This document shows positions 1-11,201 of a stretch of 11,201 bases of DNA, one piece after another. The translations under genes and the position numbers were made by a program. The DNA comes from a bacterium (GTDB taxonomy: Bacteria > Bacteroidota > Bacteroidia > Bacteroidales > Bacteroidaceae). How positions within the stretch are numbered: the stretch's first letter is position 1; each line of letters begins with the position of its first letter. Where the stretch lies: assembly GCA_004562975.1 (NCBI GenBank), contig SFQP01000066.1, forward strand, positions 1 to 11,201. The letters are read 5' to 3'. Below the pieces are notes generated by a model. It was given only the letters and a program-made list of their open reading frames with translations, was not told the DNA's origin and searched no databases.

Positions 1-1065
1 CTGGGCACGCTCACACGCTCCATGAAGGGGCTATGCGTGGCGGGCACGCACGGCAAAACCACCACCACCTCGATGTGCGCTCACCTGCTCCACGAAAGCC
101 ACGTGGGATGCAACGCTTTCCTCGGCGGCATCACGAAGAATTACGGCACGAACTACCTGCTCAGCAAGGACAGCCCGTACGTGGTCATCGAAGCGGACGA
201 GTTTGACCGCTCCTTCCACCACCTGCGGCCCTATGCCACGGTGATCACGGCCACGGATGCCGACCACCTGGACATCTACGGCACGGAGGAGGCTTATCTG
301 GAGAGCTTTCGCCACTACACCTCGCTGGTGCAGCCCGGAGGCGCGCTGATTGTCCACCGGGGACTGCAAATGCAGGAGAACCTGCAACCGGGGGTCAGAC
401 GCTACGACTACAGCCGCACGGAAGGCGACTTCCACGCTGAAAACATACGCATCGGCGGCGGACACATCGTGTTTGACTTCGTCTCGCCCTTGGGCAACAT
501 CGCCGATGTGGAACTGGGCGTGCCGGTGAGCATCAACATCGACAACGGTATCGCCGCCATGGCACTGGCTCAGCTGGCCGGTGCCACGGAAACGGAAATC
601 CGGCAGGCCATGGCTTCATTCGCCGGGGTGGACCGCCGCTTTGACTTCACCCTGAAAACGGACCGCCACGTGCTGCTATCCGACTATGCCCACCATCCGG
701 AAGAGATACGCCAAAGTATCCTCTCCGTGCGCGAGGTGTTCACGGGACGGAAAATCACCGGCGTGTTCCAGCCTCATCTCTTCACGCGCACGCGCGATTT
801 TTATAAGGAGTTCGCTGACAGCCTCTCGCTGCTCGACGAGGTGATACTGACAGAAATCTACCCGGCACGCGAAAAGCCTATCGAAGGGGTGAGCAGCCGG
901 CTCATCTTCGACAACCTGAGAAGCGGTATGCCGAAACAGCTGATTGAAAAGAAGGACCTGCCCGAACTGGCCCGGCAACGGGACTTCGACGTGCTGATAG
1001 TGCTGGGTGCAGGCGACGTGGTGGACTTCATGCCGCAACTGAAGGCTGCCATGGAAAGCAAATGA
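1..1065 (+). CDS. murC: UDP-N-acetylmuramate--L-alanine ligase MurC (5' end outside window)
   Basis: Cytoplasmic ligase that uses ATP to add L-alanine to UDP-N-acetylmuramic acid, the first amino acid step of peptidoglycan precursor synthesis. The reading frame is open from base 1, and the seven codons before the first ATG (at 22) continue the protein, so the gene is cut by the window edge and ATG 22 is not its start. Visible are 354 residues; MurC is usually about 455-460, so roughly 100 N-terminal residues (the UDP-binding Rossmann part) are missing. The ATP P-loop GTHGKTTTT lies at visible residues 15-23. Further Mur ligase marks are EADEFD, the DYAHHPEEI motif, FQPHLFTRTRDFYKEF and LGAGDV near the end. 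It is 34 bases upstream of ftsQ, the usual dcw cluster order, and probably cotranscribed with it. Identification is firm; the C-terminus is complete. Confidence 0.96.
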   Translation: MGTLTRSMKGLCVAGTHGKTTTTSMCAHLLHESHVGCNAFLGGITKNYGTNYLLSKDSPYVVIEADEFDRSFHHLRPYATVITATDADHLDIYGTEEAYLESFRHYTSLVQPGGALIVHRGLQMQENLQPGVRRYDYSRTEGDFHAENIRIGGGHIVFDFVSPLGNIADVELGVPVSINIDNGIAAMALAQLAGATETEIRQAMASFAGVDRRFDFTLKTDRHVLLSDYAHHPEEIRQSILSVREVFTGRKITGVFQPHLFTRTRDFYKEFADSLSLLDEVILTEIYPAREKPIEGVSSRLIFDNLRSGMPKQLIEKKDLPELARQRDFDVLIVLGAGDVVDFMPQLKAAMESK

Positions 1066-1099
1066 CAACGCTTCTTTCAACCTACAACGCCCCACGGAC

Positions 1100-1828
1100 A
1101 TGAAGACGTTTCTCAAACTCGTGCTGCTCGTCGGTCTCATCGTCTACCTGGTCTTTGCCTTCGGCAGCTTTACCAACCATACCGACAATACCGTTTGCCA
1201 ACAGGTGAACTATACCATCGCGGACAGCTCGCACGCCGGATTTATCACAGCCGACGAGGCGGACCGCCTGCTGCAGGCCTCGGGAAGCTACCCCGTGGGA
1301 CGACAGGTGAAGGACATCGACGTGACTGCCATCGAAAGGACGCTGAAAAAGAACAACTTCATTGACTCGGTGTCGTGCTACAAATCGCCCAACGGCACCG
1401 TGAACGTGCTCATCGCACAACGCCTGCCGCTCATGCGCATCAAAGCGGAAAACGGCGATGACTACTACATCGACAGCCGGGGGAACATGATGAACCCGCT
1501 GAACTATGCCGCCGACCTCGTGGTGGCCACCGGAAACATCGACCGGAAATTCGCACGGCAGGAACTGGTGAAAATCGGACGCTTCCTGCACGACGACCCT
1601 TTCTGGAACGCTCAAATAGAACAAATACACGTGATGCCCAACCAACACCTGAAAATGGTGCCGCGCGTGGGCGCACACATCATTGACTTCGGAACGCCCG
1701 ACAGCATCTCACAAAAGTTCCGCAACCTGTACATGTTCTACGAAAAAGTAATGCCCCAGGCGGGATGGAACAAGTACAAGGAAATCTCCGTGGAACACGT
1801 CACGCAAATCGTGGGACGGAAAGGATGA
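1100..1828 (+). CDS. ftsQ: Cell division protein FtsQ
   Basis: Bitopic membrane protein of the divisome that links early cytoplasmic components to the septal peptidoglycan machinery. The 242-residue product starts MKTFLKL, followed by one hydrophobic segment at about residues 5-22, giving a short cytoplasmic tail and a large periplasmic part. A POTRA-like region follows (about residues 35-115), containing FITADEADRLL, the stretch on IERTLKKNNFIDSVSCYKSPNGTVNVLIAQRLPL, and then YYIDSRGNMM, typical of Bacteroidetes FtsQ. FtsQ is poorly conserved in general, so the call rests on this topology, the recognisable POTRA pattern and its place between murC and ftsA. It lies 34 bases after murC and 82 bases before ftsA. 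No separate promoter is evident, so it is probably part of the dcw operon. Confidence 0.9.
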   Translation: MKTFLKLVLLVGLIVYLVFAFGSFTNHTDNTVCQQVNYTIADSSHAGFITADEADRLLQASGSYPVGRQVKDIDVTAIERTLKKNNFIDSVSCYKSPNGTVNVLIAQRLPLMRIKAENGDDYYIDSRGNMMNPLNYAADLVVATGNIDRKFARQELVKIGRFLHDDPFWNAQIEQIHVMPNQHLKMVPRVGAHIIDFGTPDSISQKFRNLYMFYEKVMPQAGWNKYKEISVEHVTQIVGRKG

Positions 1829-1910
1829 AAAACCGACCCGCAACCGGACGGTAAGGGCAAAACGAAACCATCAACCTATCTTCCCTAAGAAACAACAAAC
1901 GAACAAAATA

Positions 1911-3344
1911 ATGGCAACAGAAGACAAATTTATCGTAGCTATCGAGCTGGGGTCCTCTAAGGTGACCGGCATTGCAGGCCGCAAACAGCCCGACGGCGCC
2001 ACCCAAATCCTTGCCTTCGCTCAAGAGCCCTCAACCACCTTCATACGCAAAGGACGCATCAACAACGTGAACAAAATGACACAGTGCATCCTGAACATGA
2101 AGGAAAAGCTGGAGCAGAAAATGCAGAAAAGCATCAGCCGTGTCTACGTGGGCATCGGAGGCATGGGAATGCACACCGTGGCCAACAGCGTGATACGGCA
2201 TTTCGACTCTAAGGTGGAAATCACACAGGACATGGTGGATGACATGTGCGACGAAAACCGCAATTCCACCAGCCCCGACCGCGACATACTGGAATCGGTG
2301 CCCCATGAATACCGGCTCGGCACGCAAATACAGACCGACCCCGTGGGTATCCTGGCCGACAGCATCGAAGGACATTTCCTCAACATCGTGGCCAACTCGT
2401 CCGTACGCGAGGAAATCAGAAACTGCTTCCGCACGGCAGGGGTGGCCATCGCCGACCTGCCCATCACCGTGCAGGCTCTGGCCGACGCCATGCTGACGGA
2501 ACCGGAAAAGCGTTCGGGATGCGTGTTCGTCGACATGGGCTCGGAAACGACCTCGGTGGCTGTCTACAAAAACAACCGCTTGCGCCACCTCGCCGTCATT
2601 CCGCTCGGAGGGGCTAACGTGAACCGCGACATCATGTCGCTGCAAATCGAGGACGACGAGGCGGAAGAGCTGAAACTGAAATACGGTGCCGCCATCGCCG
2701 ACAACTCGGGCGAAAAACACGCACCCATCCCCCTGCGCGACGGACGGCACGTGGACTACGACGATTTCAGCGGACTGGTGGAGGCACGCGTGGAGGAAAT
2801 CATCCTCAACGTGAAAAACCAGATTGCCCTGTCGAAATATGACAAGGGACAACTCATCGGAGGTCTCATCATCACCGGAGGGGCTTCGCACATGAAGGAT
2901 ATCGACAAGGCTTTCGTGCGCAACACGCAGTTTGAGAAAATACGCTTCGTACGCAACATACGCATTCCGCTCCGCTCGGGAGAATACAGCAACTTCAACG
3001 CCGACGGCGACTGCAACGCTGCCATCGCGCTCATCGACAAGGGAGAAATGAACTGCTGCGGTGGACCGCTCGGACAGCCGGGATTGTTCGAAGAACCGGC
3101 AGAGGAGGAAGAACACGTGCCCACTCCCGAAGAAATCGCCGAAGAAGAAAGAAGAAAGGCGCAAGAGGAGGAGGAAAGACTGCAAAGGGAGGCTGAAGAA
3201 AGAGCGGCAGCCGAAGCAGCCGAAGCACAAAGAAGAAAAGAAGAAACCGAAAGAAAGCGGAAGGAACGCAAGGCCGTTTTCACCAAGGGCATGAAGCGCA
3301 TCAGTTCCTTCTTCTCCGGACTGGTCAACGAAAAGGATGACTAA
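1911..3344 (+). CDS. ftsA: Cell division protein FtsA, with long charged C-terminal linker
   Basis: Actin-like ATPase that tethers FtsZ filaments to the inner face of the cytoplasmic membrane and recruits later divisome proteins. The 477-residue product opens with the phosphate-1 motif IVAIELGSSKVTGIAG (about residues 8-23). Phosphate-2 is VFVDMGSETTSVAVY and the adenosine motif is GLIITGGASHMKDI, so the SHS2/FtsA and actin-fold core spans about residues 1-385. Residues about 390-453 form a linker made almost only of Glu, Lys, Arg, Ala and Gln, likely one long helix. The last 24 residues (KAVFTKGMKRISSFFSGLVN and a short acidic end) look like the amphipathic membrane-targeting helix. The start ATG at 1911 follows an A-rich leader without a Shine-Dalgarno sequence, as is usual in Bacteroidota. 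Its partner ftsZ follows after 141 bases. Confidence 0.96.
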   Translation: MATEDKFIVAIELGSSKVTGIAGRKQPDGATQILAFAQEPSTTFIRKGRINNVNKMTQCILNMKEKLEQKMQKSISRVYVGIGGMGMHTVANSVIRHFDSKVEITQDMVDDMCDENRNSTSPDRDILESVPHEYRLGTQIQTDPVGILADSIEGHFLNIVANSSVREEIRNCFRTAGVAIADLPITVQALADAMLTEPEKRSGCVFVDMGSETTSVAVYKNNRLRHLAVIPLGGANVNRDIMSLQIEDDEAEELKLKYGAAIADNSGEKHAPIPLRDGRHVDYDDFSGLVEARVEEIILNVKNQIALSKYDKGQLIGGLIITGGASHMKDIDKAFVRNTQFEKIRFVRNIRIPLRSGEYSNFNADGDCNAAIALIDKGEMNCCGGPLGQPGLFEEPAEEEEHVPTPEEIAEEERRKAQEEEERLQREAEERAAAEAAEAQRRKEETERKRKERKAVFTKGMKRISSFFSGLVNEKDD

Positions 3345-3351
3345 AACCCGC

Positions 3352-3427
3352 CGGATGTTTTCACCAAGTCTGCCAAGCAGCGTCACTGACGGAAAGCTTG
3401 AGTCGGAAACGGACGAGAAAACATCCG
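3352..3427. repeat. 11-bp perfect inverted repeat in the ftsA-ftsZ gap
   Basis: CGGATGTTTTC at 3352-3362 is the exact reverse complement of GAAAACATCCG at 3417-3427. The arms enclose 54 bases that contain further small hairpins, for example CTGC/GCAG and CGTC/GACG. It begins a few bases after the ftsA stop and ends 58 bases before the first ftsZ ATG. There is no T-tract after the second arm, so a simple terminator is not well supported; an mRNA structure separating ftsA from ftsZ, or a processing site, is possible. Function is inferred only. Confidence 0.5.
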
Positions 3428-3485
3428 ACAACGGCGAACTCTCCTTTGCAGGATTACTCACAACGAACCAACAAAGCATATTCCA

Positions 3486-4802
3486 ATGGCAGAAGACAAT
3501 AACGAACTTCTTATAGATATGGGCATACCCACCACCACGCCTTCCATCATCAAGGTGATAGGGGTCGGCGGCGGCGGCGGCAACGCGGTGAACCACATGT
3601 ACCGCGAAGGCATACACGACGTGAACTTCGTGGTGTGCAACACCGACAGCAAAGCACTCACCGACTCGCCCGTGCCCGCCAGGCTGCAACTGGGCCACGA
3701 GGGTCTGGGAGCCGGCAACCGGCCCGAAAGGGCACGTCAGGCGGCCGAAGAGAGCGTGGAGGAAATCAAGAAAATGCTCAACGATGGCACCAAGATGGTG
3801 TTCATCACGGCAGGTATGGGCGGCGGTACCGGTACGGGCGCAGCTCCCGTCATCGCCCGTGAGGCCAAGGCCATGGGCATCCTGACCGTGGGCATCGTCA
3901 CCATCCCGTTCCGGTTCGAGGGCAACAAGAAGATCGACCAGGCTCTCGACGGCGTGGAGGAGATTTCCAAACACGTCGACGCACTCCTGGTCATCAACAA
4001 CGAACGCCTGCGCGAAATCTACCCCGAACTGAACGTGCTCTCGGCATTCGAGATGGCGGACAACACGCTCAGCGTGGCGGCACGCTCCATCGCCGAAATC
4101 ATCACCATGCACGGCATCATCAACCTTGACTTCCGCGATGTCTGCACCGTGCTCAAGGACGGCGGCGTGGCCATCATGTCGACCGGATTCGGCGAGGGCG
4201 ACAGCCGTGTCAGCAAGGCCATTGAGGCTGCCCTCCACTCGCCGTTGCTGAACAACAACGATATCTTCAACTCGAAGAAGGTGCTCCTCTCCATCTCTTT
4301 CTGCGCCGAAAAGGAAGGCGACACGCTGATGATGGAGGAGATGAACGAGGTTCACGACTTCATGTCGAAATTCCACGACGACGTGGAAACGAAATGGGGC
4401 CTCTCCACCGACCCCTCACTCGGCAAGCAGGTGAAAATCACCATCCTCGCCACCGGCTTCGGCATCAGCAATGTGCCGGGCATCAAGAACAAGATCGATG
4501 CGGAGGAGGAACAGCGCAGGCAACGCGATGTGGAGAAACAGGAAGAGTACGAGGAACGACGAGAAGGCTTCTATGGGGGAGACAAGAAAGGTACGCTACG
4601 CAAACGGCCCAAGTTCTTCCTCTTCGGACTCGACGACCTGGACAACGAGGAAATCATCTCCATGGTAGAACTCACCCCTACCTACAAACGCTCCAAGGAG
4701 GTGCTCTCCGACATCAAAGCCAAAGCCTACGGCAACGTGGCCATCGAACCGGAAAGCGCACAGAGTCCCGCCGCAACGCCCGGCTCCGTCATCTCGTTCT
4801 GA
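3486..4802 (+). CDS. ftsZ: Cell division GTPase FtsZ, first copy
   Basis: Tubulin-like GTPase that polymerises into the cytoplasmic Z-ring and directs septal wall synthesis. The 438-residue product carries the T1 glycine loop GVGGGGGNAV (26-35), a T3-type loop GLGAGNRPE, the tubulin signature GMGGGTGTG (110-118), the ribose/phosphate contact region FEGNKK (144-149) and the T7 catalytic loop NLDFRD (213-218) with N213, D215 and D218. After the globular core comes a charged linker (about 340-370, rich in Glu, Arg and Gln) and a conserved tail block from FFLFGLDDLD to TPTYKR (376-402), ending in VISF; I do not see the proteobacterial C-terminal peptide. It directly follows ftsA, so I take it as the ancestral dcw ftsZ. 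A second, diverged ftsZ follows after 130 bases. Confidence 0.97.
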   Translation: MAEDNNELLIDMGIPTTTPSIIKVIGVGGGGGNAVNHMYREGIHDVNFVVCNTDSKALTDSPVPARLQLGHEGLGAGNRPERARQAAEESVEEIKKMLNDGTKMVFITAGMGGGTGTGAAPVIAREAKAMGILTVGIVTIPFRFEGNKKIDQALDGVEEISKHVDALLVINNERLREIYPELNVLSAFEMADNTLSVAARSIAEIITMHGIINLDFRDVCTVLKDGGVAIMSTGFGEGDSRVSKAIEAALHSPLLNNNDIFNSKKVLLSISFCAEKEGDTLMMEEMNEVHDFMSKFHDDVETKWGLSTDPSLGKQVKITILATGFGISNVPGIKNKIDAEEEQRRQRDVEKQEEYEERREGFYGGDKKGTLRKRPKFFLFGLDDLDNEEIISMVELTPTYKRSKEVLSDIKAKAYGNVAIEPESAQSPAATPGSVISF

Positions 4803-4836
4803 CAACCTGAAGCGTACCACGCAAGCTGCATACAAT

Positions 4837-4879
4837 GGAGGGTGAGGTGTTCACACAACACTTGCCCTCCCTTTCTTTC
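4837..4879 (+). terminator. Hairpin with pyrimidine tract between the two ftsZ genes
   Basis: GGAGGG (4837-4842) pairs with CCCTCC (4865-4870), and inside it GTGTT (4847-4851) pairs with AACAC (4857-4861) around a 5-base loop, with a small internal loop between the stems. CTTTCTTTC follows at 4871-4879. The shape resembles a weak intrinsic terminator or attenuator placed 34 bases after the first ftsZ stop. It could lower expression of the second ftsZ relative to the first, or stabilise the upstream mRNA end. The stem is interrupted and the tract is not pure T, so partial termination is the most I would infer. Confidence 0.45.
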
Positions 4880-4888
4880 ACCACCAGC

Positions 4889-4896
4889 GACATTTG
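4889..4896 (+). promoter_or_regulatory. Candidate Bacteroides-type -7 box for second ftsZ
   Basis: GACATTTG matches the Bacteroides -7 consensus TAnnTTTG in all fixed positions except the first. It lies just after the inter-ftsZ hairpin and 36 bases before the second ftsZ ATG, a sensible position. No good TTTG/TTG element sits 19-21 bases upstream (nearest CTTG is about 24 bases away), so support is weak. Confidence 0.25.
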
Positions 4897-4932
4897 CAAC
4901 AACTTTCCCCACCCATCACCAAAAACACACGC

Positions 4933-6186
4933 ATGAACGACAACCTGATAGATCTGGCCATTCCCTCCACACCACACATCATCAAAGTCATAGGTGTGGG
5001 AGGAGGAGGAGGAAATGCCGTGGCACAAATGTACCACGACAACATCCCCGAAGTGCGTTACATGGTGACCAACACCGACACCAAGGCGTTAGAAACCAAC
5101 GTCGTGCCCGACCAACTGCGGCTCGGCCCCGGACTGGGGGCGGGCGGAGACCCCAAAAAGGGCAAAGCCTATGCCGAAGAAAGTGTGGAGAAAATCAGGG
5201 AAGCACTGGACAAGGACACACACATGGTGTTCATCACGGCAGGCATGGGCGGCGGAACCGGAACGGGAGCCTCGCCCATCATTGCACGCGAAGCACAGAA
5301 AAAAGGCATTCTCACCGTCGGCATCGTCACCATTCCTTTCCTCTTTGAAAGGGAAAGGCAAATCAACAAGGCACTCGACGGTCTCGATATGCTGGCCAAG
5401 GAAGTGGATGCACTGCTGGTCATCAACAACCAGCGGCTCATTGACATCTATGGCGACATGTCTATCATCCAAGCCTTCAAACAGGCCGACAAAACGCTCT
5501 CGACAGCCGTGAGATCCATCACCGAAATCATTTCCATGCACGGACGGGTGAACCTCGACTTCGAGGACGTGAAGACGGTGCTCACGAAGGGCGGTGTGGC
5601 CGTCATGTCCACCGGATTTGCCGAAGGGGAGAGACGTGTGACAAGAGCCATCGCGGAAGCACTCAACTCGCCGTTGCTCAACAACAACGACGTGTACCGC
5701 GCAAACCGCATCCTCCTCGCCGTGACGATGGGCACGAACCCCGAATATGAGCTGACCATGAACGAAATGAACGAAATCTCGGAATTCATGGAACGCTTCC
5801 CCAACGACATCCACACCAAATGGGGACTGAAACAGGACGAAACGCTGGGAGCGAAAATCAAAATCACCATCCTCGCCGCCGGATTCGGACTCTACTCCGA
5901 CAGGAAAAACGGCAACCCCCTACCGCAATTCGAGGAAACGCCCGAGCAGCAGGAACGCCGCAACCGCTTCTACACCAAACAGGCACGCCCCATACGGTCG
6001 AAGCCACGCTGCTACCTCTTCACCGAGGCCGACCTCGAAAACACCGAACTGCTGAACCTCGTGGAGCAAACGCCCACGTGGCGACGCACCAACGAACAGC
6101 TGAAGGCCATACAGCAATGCGCCGGAACGGCACTGCCGCATCCGGAAACCGCACCCGAAGCGGGAGATACCATCTCGTTCAGCTGA
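4933..6186 (+). CDS. ftsZ: Second, diverged FtsZ paralogue
   Basis: Full-length FtsZ-family GTPase of 417 residues, directly downstream of the first ftsZ and roughly half identical to it in the core by eye. It keeps the T1 loop GVGGGGGNAV (21-30), GMGGGTGTG (104-112) and the T7 loop NLDFED with N207, D209 and D212, so GTP binding and hydrolysis are plausible. Differences from copy one: GLGAGGDPKK in the T3 region, and FERERQ (138-143) where copy one has FEGNKK, losing the Gly and the last basic residue of a nucleotide contact segment. The charged linker is shorter; the Bacteroidales tail block (359-385, CYLFTEADLE to TPTWRR) and an ISF end are kept. I chose ATG 4933 because MNDNLIDLAIP aligns with the start of copy one; an upstream TTG at 4894 would add 13 unmatched residues. 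It may copolymerise with, or regulate, the first FtsZ; this is inference. Confidence 0.95.
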   Translation: MNDNLIDLAIPSTPHIIKVIGVGGGGGNAVAQMYHDNIPEVRYMVTNTDTKALETNVVPDQLRLGPGLGAGGDPKKGKAYAEESVEKIREALDKDTHMVFITAGMGGGTGTGASPIIAREAQKKGILTVGIVTIPFLFERERQINKALDGLDMLAKEVDALLVINNQRLIDIYGDMSIIQAFKQADKTLSTAVRSITEIISMHGRVNLDFEDVKTVLTKGGVAVMSTGFAEGERRVTRAIAEALNSPLLNNNDVYRANRILLAVTMGTNPEYELTMNEMNEISEFMERFPNDIHTKWGLKQDETLGAKIKITILAAGFGLYSDRKNGNPLPQFEETPEQQERRNRFYTKQARPIRSKPRCYLFTEADLENTELLNLVEQTPTWRRTNEQLKAIQQCAGTALPHPETAPEAGDTISFS

Positions 6187-6228
6187 CAACGGAACTTTTT
6201 CATCCAAACCAACATAACACACAAAAAG

Positions 6229-6675
6229 ATGCTTTTTGAAACCATCAACTCTAACATCACTGCGGCCATGAAGGCCAAGGACAAAGTGCGTCTGGAAGCC
6301 CTGCGCAACATCAAGAAGTACTTTATTGAAGCCAAGACCGCTCCCGGAGCCAACGATACGCTCACCGACGACGCAGCCCTGAAAATCCTGGCCAAGCTGG
6401 CCAAACAGGGACGCGATGCCGCAGCTCTCTTCAACCAGCAGCAACGCCCCGACCTCGCAGAAGCCGAAATGGCACAAGTGAAGGTCATCGAGGAATTCCT
6501 GCCCCAGCCCCTCACGCCCGAAGAACTGGAGGCTGAACTAAAAGCCATCATCGCCGAACAAGGAGCCACCTCTCCCAAGGATATGGGCAAGGTGATGGGA
6601 GCCGCCACCAAGAAACTGGCAGGCCGCGCCGACGGCAAAGCCATCTCAGCCCTGGTCAAACAGCTCCTGGCCTGA
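6229..6675 (+). CDS. yqeY: GatB/YqeY domain protein
   Basis: Small cytoplasmic protein of 148 residues, the usual size for the YqeY family. It is mostly predicted helix: MLFETINSNITAAMKAKDKVRLEALRNIK at the N-terminus (in which KDKVRLEALRNIK is a family hallmark), then KQGRDAAALF, a middle helix ending in EEFLPQPLT, and the C-terminal GKVMGAATKKLAGRADGKAIS segment that resembles the tRNA-binding tail domain of GatB. The family is thought to act around tRNA-dependent amidotransfer, but its exact role is not settled, and no GatCAB genes are visible here. It lies 42 bases after the second ftsZ in the same direction and is followed by a strong hairpin, so it is probably the last gene of the dcw transcription unit. 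yqeY downstream of ftsZ is, as I recall, common in Bacteroidales. Confidence 0.92.
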   Translation: MLFETINSNITAAMKAKDKVRLEALRNIKKYFIEAKTAPGANDTLTDDAALKILAKLAKQGRDAAALFNQQQRPDLAEAEMAQVKVIEEFLPQPLTPEELEAELKAIIAEQGATSPKDMGKVMGAATKKLAGRADGKAISALVKQLLA

Positions 6676-6707
6676 GACACGGCCATCCGGAAACCTTCCT
6701 TATCCCA

Positions 6708-6751
6708 CACGGCGGGGACGCAGACCGCAACCGGTCCGCGTCCCCGCCGTG
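6708..6751 (+). terminator. Strong hairpin closing the dcw-yqeY unit
   Basis: CACGGCGGGGACGC (6708-6721) and GCGTCCCCGCCGTG (6738-6751) form a perfect, very GC-rich 14-bp stem. Within the loop, GACC (6723-6726) pairs with GGTC (6733-6736), leaving a 6-base apical loop. It starts 33 bases after the yqeY stop and lies before the gltX promoter, where a terminator is expected. No T-run follows (the next bases are CATATAGGG), so either termination is not of the classical intrinsic type or the structure protects the 3' end. Confidence 0.7.
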
Positions 6752-6798
6752 CATATAGGGCTGACGGATGGCCAAAGTAAGAAAAAATAGTGCTATCT

Positions 6799-6828
6799 CT
6801 TGTTATTTATAGAAAAGCCTTACCTTTG
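6799..6828 (+). promoter_or_regulatory. Bacteroides-type promoter for gltX
   Basis: TACCTTTG at 6821-6828 is a perfect match to the Bacteroides -7 consensus TAnnTTTG. CTTG at 6799-6802 sits 18 bases upstream and matches the -33 TTTG element in three of four positions. The surrounding bases 6780-6820 are AT-rich in an otherwise GC-rich window. Transcription would start at about 6833-6838, giving a leader of about 65-70 bases before the gltX ATG. This is the clearest promoter in the window and is consistent with recognition by the Bacteroidota primary sigma factor. Confidence 0.75.
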
Positions 6829-6861
6829 CGAGGCTTAAAATGAGCTGAAAACAACACCACT

Positions 6862-6881
6862 ACCGGGCCAAACTTCCCGGT
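6862..6881 (+). other. Small hairpin in the gltX leader
   Basis: ACCGGG (6862-6867) pairs with CCCGGT (6876-6881) around an 8-base loop, in the untranslated leader about 20 bases before the gltX ATG. It is short and no known riboswitch or T-box pattern is visible. It could be chance or a minor translational element. Confidence 0.25.
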
Positions 6882-6902
6882 TCCCTACCTATTTACAAAT
6901 AT

Positions 6903-8247
6903 ATGACCGAAAGAAAAGTCAGGGTGCGCTTTGCACCCAGCCCCACCGGGCCACTGCATATCGGCGGCGTACGTACCGCACTTTACAACTACCTTTTCGC
7001 CCGCCAGCACGGCGGCGACCTCGTTTTCCGCATTGAAGACACCGACTCCCCCTACCGCCAGAGCGAGCGGCGCGACATCTACCGTCAATACGTGCGGCAG
7101 CTGCTTGACAACGGTAAAGCCTATGTGGCGTTCGACACCCCCGAGGAACTGGATGCCAAGCGCAAGGAAGTGGCCAACTTCCAGTACGATGCTCGCACCC
7201 GGATGCAGATGCGCAACTCCCTGGTGCTCGGGGCGGAAGAAACACAACGCCTCATCGATGCCGGCGAGAAGTACGTGGTACGTTTCAAGGTAGAGCCCGG
7301 CGAAGAAATCCACGTGCAGGACATCATCCGGGGCGACGTGCGCATCATGTCGGACATCCTCGACGACAAGGTGCTCTATCCGGGGTGAAGAGTGGCTGCC
7401 CTCGGCCCCGCTCCACGTGCTCCTCTACCGCGCTTTCGGCTGGGCCGACACCATGCCCGCCTTCGCCCACCTGCCCCTGCTGCTCAAGCCCGACGGCAAA
7501 GGAAAGCTCTCCAAGCGCGACGGCGACCGCCTCGGCTTCCCCGTGTTCCCCTTGGAGTGGCACGACCCGAAGAGCGGCAACATCTCGTCCGGCTACCGCG
7601 AAAACGGCTACCTGCCCCACGCCGTCATCAACTTCCTCGCCCTGCTCGGATGGAACCCCGGAACGGACCAAGAAATCCTCTCCATGCAGGAACTCATCGA
7701 GCAGTTCGACCTAACGAAGTGCTCCAAGAGCGGCGCCAAGTTCGACTACATCAAAGGCCAATGGTTCAACCGCGAATACATCCAACGCACCGACAACGCC
7801 CTGCTGGCCCCCACCCTTGACCGCATACTGCGCGAAAACGGCATCGAGCAGCCCATCGAGCGCGTCGAAGCCGTGGTAGGCATGATGAAGATGAAAAAAA
7901 TCAACTTCATCAAGGAACTCTGGCCCCTGTGCGACTTCTTCTTCATCCGCCCCACCTACCAGACCGACGACAAGTTCACGCGCAAGAACTGGAAAGAAGG
8001 TACGGCAGCCGAGATGCGCGAACTGGCCGACCTGCTCGCCGGCCTCGACGACTTCTCCGTGGAGAGCCAGAAATCCGCCGTCGACGCCTGGGCCGCCGAA
8101 GGCAACAAAAAACCCTGGAACCCCTGGCGCGTATGCCTGGTCGGCACAGGCAAAGGCCCCGACATGTACGAACTGGCCGCCTTCCTGGGTAAAGAGGAAA
8201 CCCTCTGCCGCATGAACGCCGCCCTTGAGGCGTTGGCCACCCTTTGA
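6903..8247 (+). pseudogene. gltX: Glutamyl-tRNA synthetase, broken by two internal deletions
   Basis: Class I aminoacyl-tRNA synthetase that charges tRNA-Glu. The 5' part (6903-7388, 161 codons) has [13 protein letters not shown], the HIGH motif, and RIEDTDS. At about 7049 it jumps straight to [11 protein letters not shown]: the family segment between these (RF/VPGAEE... WLG... DEG) is absent, an in-frame loss of about 33 codons. At about 7380 the frame breaks: VLY runs into PG and a TGA at 7386, while the sequence resumes one frame over at 7381 with [21 protein letters not shown]. The missing piece is about 77 bases, encoding the conserved [21 protein letters not shown] region. The 3' part to 8247 is intact, with the KMSKS-type motif KLSKR at 7504-7518 and the anticodon-binding domain. 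Adding both pieces back gives about 508 residues, the usual size. Both losses hit the catalytic core, so an active enzyme is not expected. A sequence or assembly error is a real alternative, because gltX is normally essential. Confidence 0.93.
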
Positions 8248-8260
8248 TGGGAAAACTTAC

Positions 8261-8294
8261 CGCCCGTCCCCGAGCAGCAGCCCGAGGACGGGCG
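8261..8294 (+). terminator. Hairpin after gltX
   Basis: CGCCCGTCC (8261-8269) pairs perfectly with GGACGGGCG (8286-8294) over a 16-base loop; three more pairs (TTA with TAA) are possible outside a one-base bulge. It starts 13 bases after the gltX stop codon. No T-run follows. Position and stability suggest a 3'-end structure or terminator for gltX. Confidence 0.6.
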
Positions 8295-8475
8295 TAACCC
8301 TATCCTACGGTACCTCCCTCGGGTCCACCGGAAAAGAAGCACTCCGCAAGCCGGCGAGACCGCCCGACACCACATCGGCGACAACGCCAGGACAACCGGA
8401 AAACCAAACCGTAAAGCCACAGCCTCCCGCACCGGCCATTCCGGCCTGCCATCCCCCCACTAACCTTCCAGTCCC
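8295..8475. other. Non-coding gap before the glycosyltransferase unit
   Basis: About 180 bases with no convincing gene. It is C- and A-rich on this strand, and no TAnnTTTG promoter box is visible, so the source of transcription for the downstream genes is unclear: read-through from gltX, or a promoter of another type. Small GGCC/CCGG repeats occur around 8433-8450 without clear meaning. Confidence 0.5.
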
Positions 8476-9765
8476 TTGAAAGTACTCCTTGTCAACACAT
8501 CCGACCACACCGGCGGGGCAGCCATCGCCGCCCTGCGCCTGCTCAAAGCCCTGAGGCAGGAAGGCATCGACGCCACCCTGCTCTGCCGCGACCGCAGCCT
8601 GCCGCCCGAACGCACCGACGTGGTTCGGCTCAAGCCATCGCCGTGGCTCAAAGTGAAATTCGCACTCGAAAGGCTCGAAATATTCCTCCGCAACGGATGC
8701 AGCCGGGAGGGCTTGTTCGCCGTCGACACCGCGCGGCTGGGCAACGACATCACGCAGCTGCCGGAGTTCAAGCAGGCCGATGTCATCCACCTCCACTGGA
8801 CCAACCAGGCCATGCTCTCGCTCGCCGGCCTGCGGCGCATCCTGCAGAGCGGCAAAAGGGTGGTATGGACCATGCACGACATGTGGCCCTTCACCGGCGT
8901 ATGCCACAACAGCGACGACTGCACCCGCTGGCTCGCCTCCTGCGGTCAATGCCCGCAGCTGCGGAAACCCTCACGCAACGACCTCTCGGCGCAGACCTTC
9001 GTCCGCAAACAGGCAGCCTATGCCGCCGGACGTTTCACCGCCGTTGGGTGCAGCCAATGGCTGACCGGGCTGGCCGCTCAAGCCCCGTTGCTCAGCACAC
9101 AGCAGGTGACGAGCATCCCCAACCCGCTCGACACCACCTTCTACTCGCCCGCCGAAGCCGAAGGCCAGAACTCCAAGGCCGAAATACGCCGCACGCTCTC
9201 CCTGCCAGCCGACAAGCGGCTGCTGCTCTTCACCGCCTTCAAACTGACCGACCCGAAGAAAGGCATTGACCACCTCATGGAAAGCATGACCCTGCTCTGC
9301 GGCGAACATCCCGAGCTGCGCGACCAGCTGGGCATAGTCCTTGCCGGCCAAGGGGCTGAAGAACTGCGCGATGCCTTCCCCGTGCCGGCCTATCCCCTGG
9401 GCTACATCAGCCAAGAAGAACAGATGCGCAACATCTACCGCGCCTCGGACCTCCTGCTCATGCCCACCCTCATGGACAACCTGCCCAACACCATAGCCGA
9501 AGCCATGGCCTGCGGCATACCCTGCGTGAGTTTCCGCGTAGGCGGCACGCCGCAGATGGTCGACCCCGGCGTGAACGGCTACCTGGCCGAATACCGCAAC
9601 AGCCTCGACTTTGCCCAAGGCATCTACCGCGTGATGTCCTCTCAAAGCTACGCCGCGCTCTGCCGCAACGCACGCGCCAAAGCCGTAACGGCCTATGCCG
9701 AAAAAACAGTGGCCGAAAAGTACATACAGCTGTACGCCGGCCTTTCAACGAACACTAACACTTAA
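8476..9765 (+). CDS. GT4-family glycosyltransferase with TTG start
   Basis: Probable retaining GT-B glycosyltransferase (CAZy GT4) that transfers a sugar from a nucleotide donor to a growing glycan at the cytoplasmic membrane face; donor and acceptor cannot be told. The 429-residue product begins MKVLLVNTSDHTGGAAIAALRL when read from TTG 8476. That start fits because the glycine-rich strand-loop is the family N-terminus, an in-frame stop lies at 8461, and the first internal Met is over 100 residues in. The N-terminal domain includes the HDMWPFTGVCH segment followed by a Cys cluster (CTRWLASCGQCPQL), common in Bacteroidota surface-glycan GT4 enzymes. The C-terminal donor domain has TAFKLTDPKKGIDHL and the EAMACGIPCVSF motif (from residue 342), ending with the VNGYL segment. 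It is 19 bases upstream of a GT2 gene, so both likely serve one pathway such as lipopolysaccharide or capsule. Confidence 0.9.
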   Translation: MKVLLVNTSDHTGGAAIAALRLLKALRQEGIDATLLCRDRSLPPERTDVVRLKPSPWLKVKFALERLEIFLRNGCSREGLFAVDTARLGNDITQLPEFKQADVIHLHWTNQAMLSLAGLRRILQSGKRVVWTMHDMWPFTGVCHNSDDCTRWLASCGQCPQLRKPSRNDLSAQTFVRKQAAYAAGRFTAVGCSQWLTGLAAQAPLLSTQQVTSIPNPLDTTFYSPAEAEGQNSKAEIRRTLSLPADKRLLLFTAFKLTDPKKGIDHLMESMTLLCGEHPELRDQLGIVLAGQGAEELRDAFPVPAYPLGYISQEEQMRNIYRASDLLLMPTLMDNLPNTIAEAMACGIPCVSFRVGGTPQMVDPGVNGYLAEYRNSLDFAQGIYRVMSSQSYAALCRNARAKAVTAYAEKTVAEKYIQLYAGLSTNTNT

Positions 9766-9784
9766 CCATTCATATCCCTATTCC

Positions 9785-10567
9785 ATGCCTCCGCTCAAAA
9801 TCACCGTCGCCACCGTCACCTACCACGCCGGAAAACTCATCGGACGCACCATCCGCAGCGTCGAAGAGCAAACTTACCCCCACGTGGAACACGTGATTGT
9901 CGATGGGAACTCGCAGGACGACACCTTAGAACAAATCCATCATTACCAGGAGCGTAACTCCGTGGCCGGCATTCCCCACGAAATAGCCTGCCTCAGCGAG
10001 CCGGACCACGGCCTCTACGATGCCATGAACAAGGCCCTTGACCTGGCCACCGGCCATTACATCGTGTTCCTCAACGCCGGCGACCGCCTCCACGGCCCCG
10101 ACACGCTGGAACGTGTGGCCCGCGCGGCTCAGTCCGCCTCCTGCCTGCCGGCTGTCATCTATGGCGACACCAACCTCGTGGACGATGCTGGCCGCTTCGT
10201 GCGCCGCCGCCGGCTCACCCCCCCCGAACGCCTCAATTGGCGTTCCTTCAAACAAGGCATGCTCGTATGCCACCAAGCCTTCTACGCCCGCACAGACCTG
10301 GCCCGCAAGTGCCGCTACAATTGCCGCTACCGCTTCTCGGCGGACTTCGACTGGTGTGTACGCATCATGCGCGAGGCCGAACGCAAGCGGCTGCCGATGG
10401 TCAACCTACAGGCCGTGGCGGCAGACTACCTGAACGAAGGGATGACCACGCAGAACCACAAGGCATCGCTGCGCGAACGCTTCCGCATCATGTGCAGCCA
10501 CTACGGCCTCCTGCCCACACTCACACTCCACGCATGGTTCGCCCTGCGCAGCATCACGAAAAAATAA
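9785..10567 (+). CDS. GT2-family glycosyltransferase (WcaE-like)
   Basis: Probable inverting GT-A glycosyltransferase of 260 residues that adds a sugar to a surface polysaccharide. From the ATG at 9785 it reads MPPLKITVATVTYHAGKLIG, the normal GT2 first strand. Then come SVEEQTYPHVEHVIVDGNSQDD (the VDGNSQDD stretch at 39-46), SEPDHGLYDAMNKAL (71-85) and FLNAGD (95-100), the set seen in WcaE-like GT2 proteins of Bacteroidota. A later FSADFDWCVRI is the usual acceptor-side motif. No transmembrane segment is evident. An in-frame upstream ATG at 9695 would overlap the preceding gene by 71 bases and adds 30 residues without family similarity, so I reject it. The gene sits 19 bases after the GT4 gene and 4 bases before recX, suggesting one transcript. 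The specific sugar is unknown. Confidence 0.92.
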   Translation: MPPLKITVATVTYHAGKLIGRTIRSVEEQTYPHVEHVIVDGNSQDDTLEQIHHYQERNSVAGIPHEIACLSEPDHGLYDAMNKALDLATGHYIVFLNAGDRLHGPDTLERVARAAQSASCLPAVIYGDTNLVDDAGRFVRRRRLTPPERLNWRSFKQGMLVCHQAFYARTDLARKCRYNCRYRFSADFDWCVRIMREAERKRLPMVNLQAVAADYLNEGMTTQNHKASLRERFRIMCSHYGLLPTLTLHAWFALRSITKK

Positions 10568-10571
10568 CCGC

Positions 10572-11018
10572 ATGACAACCGATTTGTACACCTGGGCCAC
10601 AGCCCGCTGTGCCAAACAGGAATTCAGCCGCGCCGACATCTGCTCCAAACTGATGGCGAAAGGAGCCTCGGCCGAAGAAGCCCGCGCCCTCACCGAAAGG
10701 CTGGTGAACGAACGGTATGTGGATGATGCCCGCTTTGCCGCAGCCTTCGTGGCGGACAAATTCCGCTTCGACCACTGGGGACGCATCAAGATACGCTATA
10801 TGCTCCACCTCAAGGGCGTGGCCGACAACGTGGTGGAAGAAGCCTTGCAGCAGATTGACGAAACGGACTACACCGAAACGCTGAAACAATTTCTGGAAAG
10901 CAAATCGCGCTCGGTCCAAGCCGCCACCCCCTTCGCACTGCGCCAGAAAGTGGCCCGCGCAGCCATCGGACGGGGCTTCGAACCTGATTTGGTTTTCCAG
11001 GTAATGAACCTGTCATGA
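10572..11018 (+). CDS. recX: Regulatory protein RecX
   Basis: Cytoplasmic modulator of RecA: RecX proteins bind RecA filaments on single-stranded DNA and limit their extension or strand exchange. The 148-residue product is all predicted helix, organised as three-helix repeats. Visible family marks are ATARCAKQEFSRADICSKL at the start, LVNERYVDDARFAAAFVADK (the core RYVDDARFA motif), FDHWGRIKIRYMLHLKGV and RQKVARAAIGRGFEPDLVF at the end. Length is normal. No recA is present in the window. It starts 4 bases after the GT2 stop, so it is probably cotranscribed with the two glycosyltransferases; I see no functional link, so this is likely positional only. A hairpin follows about 90 bases later. 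Confidence 0.93.
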   Translation: MTTDLYTWATARCAKQEFSRADICSKLMAKGASAEEARALTERLVNERYVDDARFAAAFVADKFRFDHWGRIKIRYMLHLKGVADNVVEEALQQIDETDYTETLKQFLESKSRSVQAATPFALRQKVARAAIGRGFEPDLVFQVMNLS

Positions 11019-11107
11019 GGTGGTTTTTCCGCATTGCCGGTAGCCACACAACCCTTGGCTTGACAGGCTCCGCCATGACGGGAGCACCCTCATCTTTCTC
11101 ATAAATA

Positions 11108-11145
11108 AACGCCAATTGCCGGACATCAAATCCGCAATTGGCGTT
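11108..11145 (+). terminator. Hairpin downstream of recX
   Basis: AACGCCAATTG (11108-11118) pairs perfectly with CAATTGGCGTT (11135-11145). With one bulged C (11119), CGGA (11120-11123) also pairs with TCCG (11131-11134), giving about 15 bp around a 7-base loop. It lies 90 bases after the recX stop. No T-run follows; the next bases are CGTGCATATAAAC. It probably ends the glycosyltransferase-recX transcript. Of the remaining bases, 11019-11107 contain only a weak GCTCC/GGAGC hairpin (11067-11085), and I see no gene in 11146-11201. Confidence 0.65.
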
Positions 11146-11201
11146 CGTGCATATAAACAAACCTATCGAAAAGTCGTGTCTTGTCAGTCAGCAGTGAGTT
11201 C

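Follow-up and report, generated by a model that had tools for sequence, protein, structure and literature searches.

A second, fast-evolving ftsZ inherited in tandem within the dcw cluster of Bacteroidaceae and its possible role as an accessory FtsZ subunit

Several lineages divide with more than one FtsZ. In plastids, FtsZ1/FtsZ2 of the green lineage and FtsZB/FtsZA of red algae are reported to stem from duplication, one protein of each pair having a C-terminal peptide and the other no defined one (PMC12343686). According to the same source, turnover of anchored plastid FtsZ is accelerated by the partner that has no defined tail peptide, and a second plastid FtsZ was proposed as a general means of raising ring dynamics. 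FtsZ1 and FtsZ2 of Odinarchaeota are described as differing in membrane attachment and as co-sedimenting with nucleotide in vitro (PMC12583498); the archaeal duplication is dated before archaeal diversification, with one copy adjoining protein biosynthesis genes (PMC9871819). Among the three FtsZ proteins of Agrobacterium tumefaciens, a linker and a C-terminal peptide are reported in one only, which is the essential one (PMC13170164). Here, we analyzed a stretch of 11,201 nucleotides from a member of the Bacteroidaceae (GenBank assembly GCA_004562975.1, contig SFQP01000066.1, positions 1 to 11,201, forward strand; hereafter the window), in which two ftsZ genes follow ftsA in the division and cell wall (dcw) cluster. 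The tandem pair is real, inherited and selected, and we consider it probable, with substantial room for doubt, that the duplicated FtsZ2 acts as an accessory subunit of FtsZ1 filaments that tunes their dynamics.

ftsZ1, positions 3486..4802, plus strand: 438 amino acids; slow-evolving copy; C-terminus ...PGSVISF.
Spacer between ftsZ1 and ftsZ2, positions 4803..4932, no strand: 130 bp.
ftsZ2, positions 4933..6186, plus strand: 417 amino acids from the ATG at 4933; fast-evolving paralogue; C-terminus ...AGDTISFS.

The preliminary description of this DNA, made from its letters, had claimed two complete ftsZ genes after ftsA, and both open reading frames (ORFs) proved to be full length, the mechanical ORF of ftsZ2 beginning at a TTG (4894) and the ATG at 4933 being taken as its start. 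The T1 (GVGGGGGNAV), T4 (AGMGGGTGTG) and T7 (NLDFxDV) motifs were found in both products, as were the Pfam Tubulin (GTPase) and FtsZ_C domains. FtsZ1 and FtsZ2 scored 322.5 and 309.4 bits, respectively, against the NCBIfam ftsZ equivalog (TIGR00065, cut-off 295.2 bits), so that curated score, domains, the GGGTGTG of T4 and the T7 aspartates all place both copies among FtsZ-type proteins. They share 52% identity across 433 columns (dN 0.42 and dS 1.06, rough values), which agrees with the claim that about half of the residues differ; the reported difference in glycine codons was found at the T1 loop, written with GGC in ftsZ1 (loop at 3564) and with GGA in ftsZ2 (4996). In the window FtsZ2, the T4 loop and T7 aspartates are intact and the T3 loop reads GLGAGG. 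An AlphaFold2 model, made for FtsZ2 only (predicted local distance difference test score 76.4), matched solved FtsZ structures with a TMt of about 0.9. From these features, FtsZ2 is predicted to be a GTP-binding FtsZ capable of filament contacts. An assembly duplicate was ruled out, as previously argued, because the copies differ at half of their residues and because relatives show the identical arrangement on long contigs (G862:C1, 2.92 Mb; G1006:C6, 2.76 Mb).

The proteins nearest to FtsZ1 and FtsZ2 were mainly metagenomic, the few named ones being from Alloprevotella, Prevotellamassilia and "Bacteroidales bacterium". Relatives were reached via a Prevotellaceae locus, and three whole-genome samples were searched for FtsZ matches, genomes with at least two matches being counted by hand from the result tables. 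In the family of the Prevotellaceae locus, 381 of 397 genomes had a match (at least two in 21), and in its order 375 of 393 (at least two in 24). In the family of G780, which has window-type pairs and belongs to the window's family, the figures were 388 of 399 and 96. The assertion that most Bacteroidota carry one ftsZ is thus right for most of them, yet far from all. Gene places were listed for all 96 multi-FtsZ genomes (65 + 37 genomes, 4 being in both lists and 2 having a single copy). The pair was in window order in 22, with the divergent copy first in 11 and with the second copy on a different contig in G823; in most of the remaining 62, the second copy lay at another genomic site; G895, G987 and G1024 resemble mixed or duplicated assemblies.

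The nearest relative found was G1055 (FtsZ1 95%). When the 58 genomes of its genus were sorted by hand, an adjacent ftsZ pair was present in 37, of which 36 were in window order and one (G1195) had the divergent copy first. Copies on separate contigs were seen in two genomes (G823, G1201), one main plus one dispersed copy in five (G1177, G1153, G1043, G1184, G1182), a single copy in 13 (including G1019, whose second match is just 24% identical) and none in one. The pair was located between ftsA and yqeY in every stretch spanning both genes. In G823 (L102, L103), murC-ftsQ-ftsA-ftsZ1 occupy one large contig and FtsZ2 shares a second large contig with yqeY, and the dcw cluster seems to be split between its two ftsZ genes.

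The descent of FtsZ2 was studied with a careful tree of 87 rows and a quick tree of 223 rows. In the careful tree, the 25 FtsZ2 rows formed one clade (support 95/99), with a single origin in 96% of bootstraps, and FtsZ2 was also one clade in the quick tree; a single origin is well supported. Because the 25 rows form one clade, FtsZ2 is best read as an inherited paralogue, and two distinct FtsZ proteins are co-inherited within the clade, as in dual-FtsZ systems. In the careful tree, FtsZ2 branches within its own genus, amid FtsZ1 and single-copy proteins, through weak forks (70/98, 65/54). The preliminary description had proposed an old duplication or acquisition kept under selection: the duplication stands, whereas horizontal acquisition is unsupported, FtsZ2 nesting within the FtsZ of the host family (though by the weak 70/98 fork) and its G+C content at third codon positions (0.72) being inside the range of its neighbours. 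The same nesting, in trees rooted on other Bacteroidales and built without archaeal rows, speaks against descent from the archaeal duplication. In seven relatives (L106, L146, L151, L212, L213, L214, L227), the gene after ftsZ1 is yqeY, with no ftsZ2 in between. One of these, L146 (G908; FtsA 77% and FtsZ1 85% to the window), adjoins the window in the tree, so loss is the simplest reading at least there, and the absence of FtsZ2 at its place in the seven relatives is most likely loss. In L229-L231, neither FtsZ2 nor yqeY follows within the stretch examined.

FtsZ subunits assemble head to tail, and each active site is completed by the T7 loop of the neighbouring subunit. In the FtsZ2 set, the T4 GGGTGTG and both T7 aspartates were found in 30/30 proteins and the T7 asparagine in 25/30, the GTP-binding face being conserved. 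Ratios of non-synonymous to synonymous change (dN/dS, Nei-Gojobori, rough values from 11 pairs sharing loci, 2 of them saturated and several with dS >1) were 0.04-0.35 for FtsZ2 and 0.01-0.19 for FtsZ1, FtsZ2 being higher in 9/9 pairs measurable in both genes. FtsZ2 is clearly under purifying selection, weaker than that on FtsZ1. The old duplication kept under selection that the preliminary description put forward is supported: FtsZ2 is one clade, relatives possess the second copy (in tandem in 37/58 genomes of the nearest genus), and selection on it is purifying. That the second gene is an assembly artefact or a decaying copy is barely credible, and already refuted by the relatives; apart from the higher dN/dS of FtsZ2 nothing points that way, and it is contradicted by the 52% protein identity, the recurrence on 2.9- and 2.8-Mb contigs, the purifying selection and the conserved T4 and T7 residues.

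FtsZ2 nevertheless changes fast. Crown-to-tip distances in the quick tree were 0.79 for FtsZ2 and 0.21 for FtsZ1, i.e. about 3.8 times faster evolution. One T3-loop position is N in 53/53 FtsZ1 and single-copy proteins of the family and G in 30/30 FtsZ2. The S8 and H10 regions vary most in FtsZ2, with within-group identities of 0.31 and 0.39 (0.71 and 0.72 in FtsZ1). Such divergence, together with the location of the G823 FtsZ2 away from the dcw cluster, might suggest a protein that has left division to build another structure related to shape, envelope or chromosome; we hold this to be very unlikely, given that FtsZ2 adjoins ftsZ1 in 37/58 genomes of the genus and that its GTP-binding face is conserved.

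In other bacteria, the C-terminal tail motif of FtsZ binds FtsA. The single dcw ftsZ of other Bacteroidaceae occupies the same locus after ftsA and encodes a similar xIxF tail in 25/31 cases, with one copy only. Since a first tail pattern missed some tails, a looser one was used for the pair counts: among 28 window-order pairs, both proteins carried the tail in 11 (including the window pair) and neither did in 7; FtsZ1 alone had it in 8, and FtsZ2 alone in 2 (L119 and L121, which appear to be chance hits). Opposite-order pairs, with the divergent copy first, had the tail on the slow copy only in 9/11 and on both in 2/11 (L180, whose slow copy is cut by the contig end, was excluded). Mapping of the tail on the tree requires six changes across the 25 FtsZ2 rows (four if L119 and L121 are set absent) and one across the 26 rows of FtsZ1 and single-copy proteins from the genus. 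FtsZ2 has lost its C-terminal tail motif several times. Within the window's genus, one subclade (L110, L116, L119, L121-L124, L128) has lost the xIxF tail of FtsZ1 as well, and its single-copy relatives L109 and L125 are likewise without it.

These patterns bear on two further explanations. FtsZ2 could serve as a backup or raise the dosage, being an FtsZ that forms homopolymers, does the same job and is kept for redundancy; its intact T4 and T7 residues, a score above the ftsZ cut-off, the tail on both proteins in 11/28 pairs and the absence of the gene from some relatives would all fit, but neither a 3.8-fold faster evolution nor repeated tail loss is expected of a backup, which makes it unlikely. 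FtsZ2 could also be a negative regulator that caps or poisons FtsZ1 filaments or times ring disassembly, as might be read from tail loss with a retained GTP pocket and from the strong variation of S8 and H10. We find this improbable, as a protein acting purely as a cap would have no use for the two T7 aspartates kept in 30/30 proteins, and S8 and H10 are among the more variable regions of FtsZ1 too.

Since both faces are kept while FtsZ2 changes fast and sheds its tail, it resembles an accessory subunit of mixed filaments more than it does a spare or a dead copy. We propose that the ftsZ of the dcw cluster was duplicated in tandem, most probably when the ancestor of an Alloprevotella-like genus lived, and that the resulting ftsZ2 was then inherited vertically and repeatedly lost; as far as the trees can resolve it, this evolutionary course holds. 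FtsZ1 would have remained the slow, constrained and anchored main subunit; FtsZ2 would have kept GTP binding and turned into an accessory subunit which most likely joins FtsZ1 filaments through the conserved head-to-tail contacts, relies less on its own tail for membrane anchoring and may change how dynamic or stable the filaments are while the cell constricts. Co-assembly, anchoring through FtsA and altered dynamics are inferences that draw in part on the plastid FtsZ1/FtsZ2 system. A division of labour between the two proteins is plausible and would fit their asymmetry of rate and tail.

Some observations weigh against the accessory-subunit proposal or limit it. The window FtsZ2 retains a TISF tail, and loss of anchoring is therefore not seen for the window protein itself. 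Nor does the tail strictly mark the main subunit, since 9/28 window-order FtsZ1 also lack it. The T3-loop G is found as well in 10/25 dispersed copies (described below) and in 6/30 single copies of the order sample. The absence of FtsZ2 in the seven relatives argues against an obligate two-part ring. Finally, the timing of the duplication is uncertain, since FtsZ2 adjoins the opposite-order fast copies in the quick tree, though not in the careful one, and a single clade uniting both was not rejected by the approximately unbiased test (p 0.161); the opposite gene order itself speaks for separate duplication events in the two kinds of pairs.

The window pair resembles the described systems in part only. 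With archaeal FtsZ1/FtsZ2 it shares the dual FtsZ; the archaeal anchor is SepF. Agrobacterium is likewise a bacterium with extra FtsZ; the second copy of the window differs in being full length and adjoining the first, and its full length and TISF tail also set it apart from the short extra FtsZ of Rhizobiales, which have no linker and no C-terminal peptide. The plastid system belongs to an organelle, uses the anchor ARC6 and has an AtFtsZ1 that also touches the membrane via a C-terminal amphiphilic motif, whereas in the genus studied here the genes are in tandem in a bacterium and the tail was lost in part of the FtsZ2 clade only. The division ring seems to have gained a slow main part and a fast accessory part through an old duplication, as came about separately in chloroplasts.

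The family sample of the Prevotellaceae locus also contained six genomes with tandem ftsZ genes (L172-L177), and the order sample 19 (L152-L170), four of the latter having three copies. In the quick tree, the fast copies of L172-L176 group with their own family, and their duplication is therefore separate from that of the window. The three tandem ftsZ of L152-L155 (G465, G427, G540, G634) follow ftsA; their upstream copies have aromatic, acidic tails (e.g. WIQTTFDSLF in the middle copies) and the last copy an NPFLHDxVD-like one. Amphipathic tails, suspected by eye on the upstream copies of L152-L169, were not borne out (2/22 significant). In opposite-order pairs (L104, L105, L107, L108, L111, L112, L117, L133, L134, L179, L180, L226), a divergent, mostly tailless copy precedes a conserved one, and in L104, L133 and L134 yqeY lies between ftsA and the pair. 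A survey of 2023, whose bacterial tree holds one sequence per order, reported that a second ftsZ, present in a small number of bacteria, lies outside the dcw cluster (PMC9871819). The tandem pairs and triplets of Bacteroidales qualify that generalisation as given in the survey.

Another class of FtsZ is dispersed outside the dcw cluster of Bacteroidaceae (L148, L188-L211 without L184, e.g. L207:5208-6506, and L220-L225). The 25 copies fetched from the window's family, three of them from G840, formed a clade in the quick tree (Shimodaira-Hasegawa-like approximate likelihood ratio test, SH-aLRT, 99). A significant C-terminal amphipathic helix was predicted in 22/25 of them, as in 76/88 FtsA tails used as control, and in 1/22 FtsZ1, 0/30 FtsZ2, 1/31 single copies and 3/11 opposite-order fast copies; six further dispersed copies from the window's genus had it in 6/6. 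In dispersed copies, an FtsA-like amphipathic helix replaces the xIxF tail, and the class is possibly self-anchoring. The T4 GGGTGTG was intact in 25/25 dispersed copies and not in L221 and L222. No convincing conserved neighbour of the dispersed copies was found, the best non-overlapping shared ORF occurring at 10/24 loci and having no Pfam match. A dispersed copy was present in 5/18 genomes without FtsZ2 and in 2/37 with it (Fisher p 0.03, ignoring kinship and assembly gaps; genomes sorted by hand, G823, G1201 and G1186 omitted), an excess to be taken as a lead only. More broadly, we tentatively consider, with more doubt than confidence, that Bacteroidales evolved two- or three-part dcw Z rings several times, each with a slow anchored and a fast tail-shedding subunit in parallel with plastids, and that the dispersed FtsZ with an FtsA-like helix may replace a lost FtsZ2.

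The surrounding genes of the window, which are all on the plus strand, are as follows.

murC, positions 1..1065, plus strand: 5' end truncated by the window; Pfam Mur_ligase_M and Mur_ligase_C.
ftsQ-like gene, positions 1100..1828, plus strand: named after its location between murC and ftsA, with a comparable ORF there in relatives; a Pfam search of this ORF returned no family.
ftsA, positions 1911..3344, plus strand: NCBIfam TIGR01174 above cut-off; C-terminal amphipathic-helix tail.
yqeY, positions 6229..6675, plus strand: Pfam YqeY; gene after the ftsZ pair in window-order relatives.

Pattern scans of the 4803-4932 spacer detected no terminator-like site, and no sigma-70-like or Bacteroidetes-type site that could provide ftsZ2 with its own promoter. 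Downstream of yqeY are an interrupted gltX, two glycosyltransferases and recX. The gltX frame (6903-8247) ends at 7388, and its remainder resumes near 7417 in a different frame; a portion of the catalytic domain, roughly profile positions 179-217, is absent. This reflects an assembly error or a broken gene.

Of the open-access literature matches listed (subscription papers and preprints lying outside their scope), none described a tandem ftsZ from this lineage, and by these matches the pair was not previously described there. Work on why plastids and archaea use two FtsZ proteins relies on slow or difficult systems. Natural experiments on the function of a second FtsZ are offered by a bacterial genus with close relatives that kept, changed or lost this copy.

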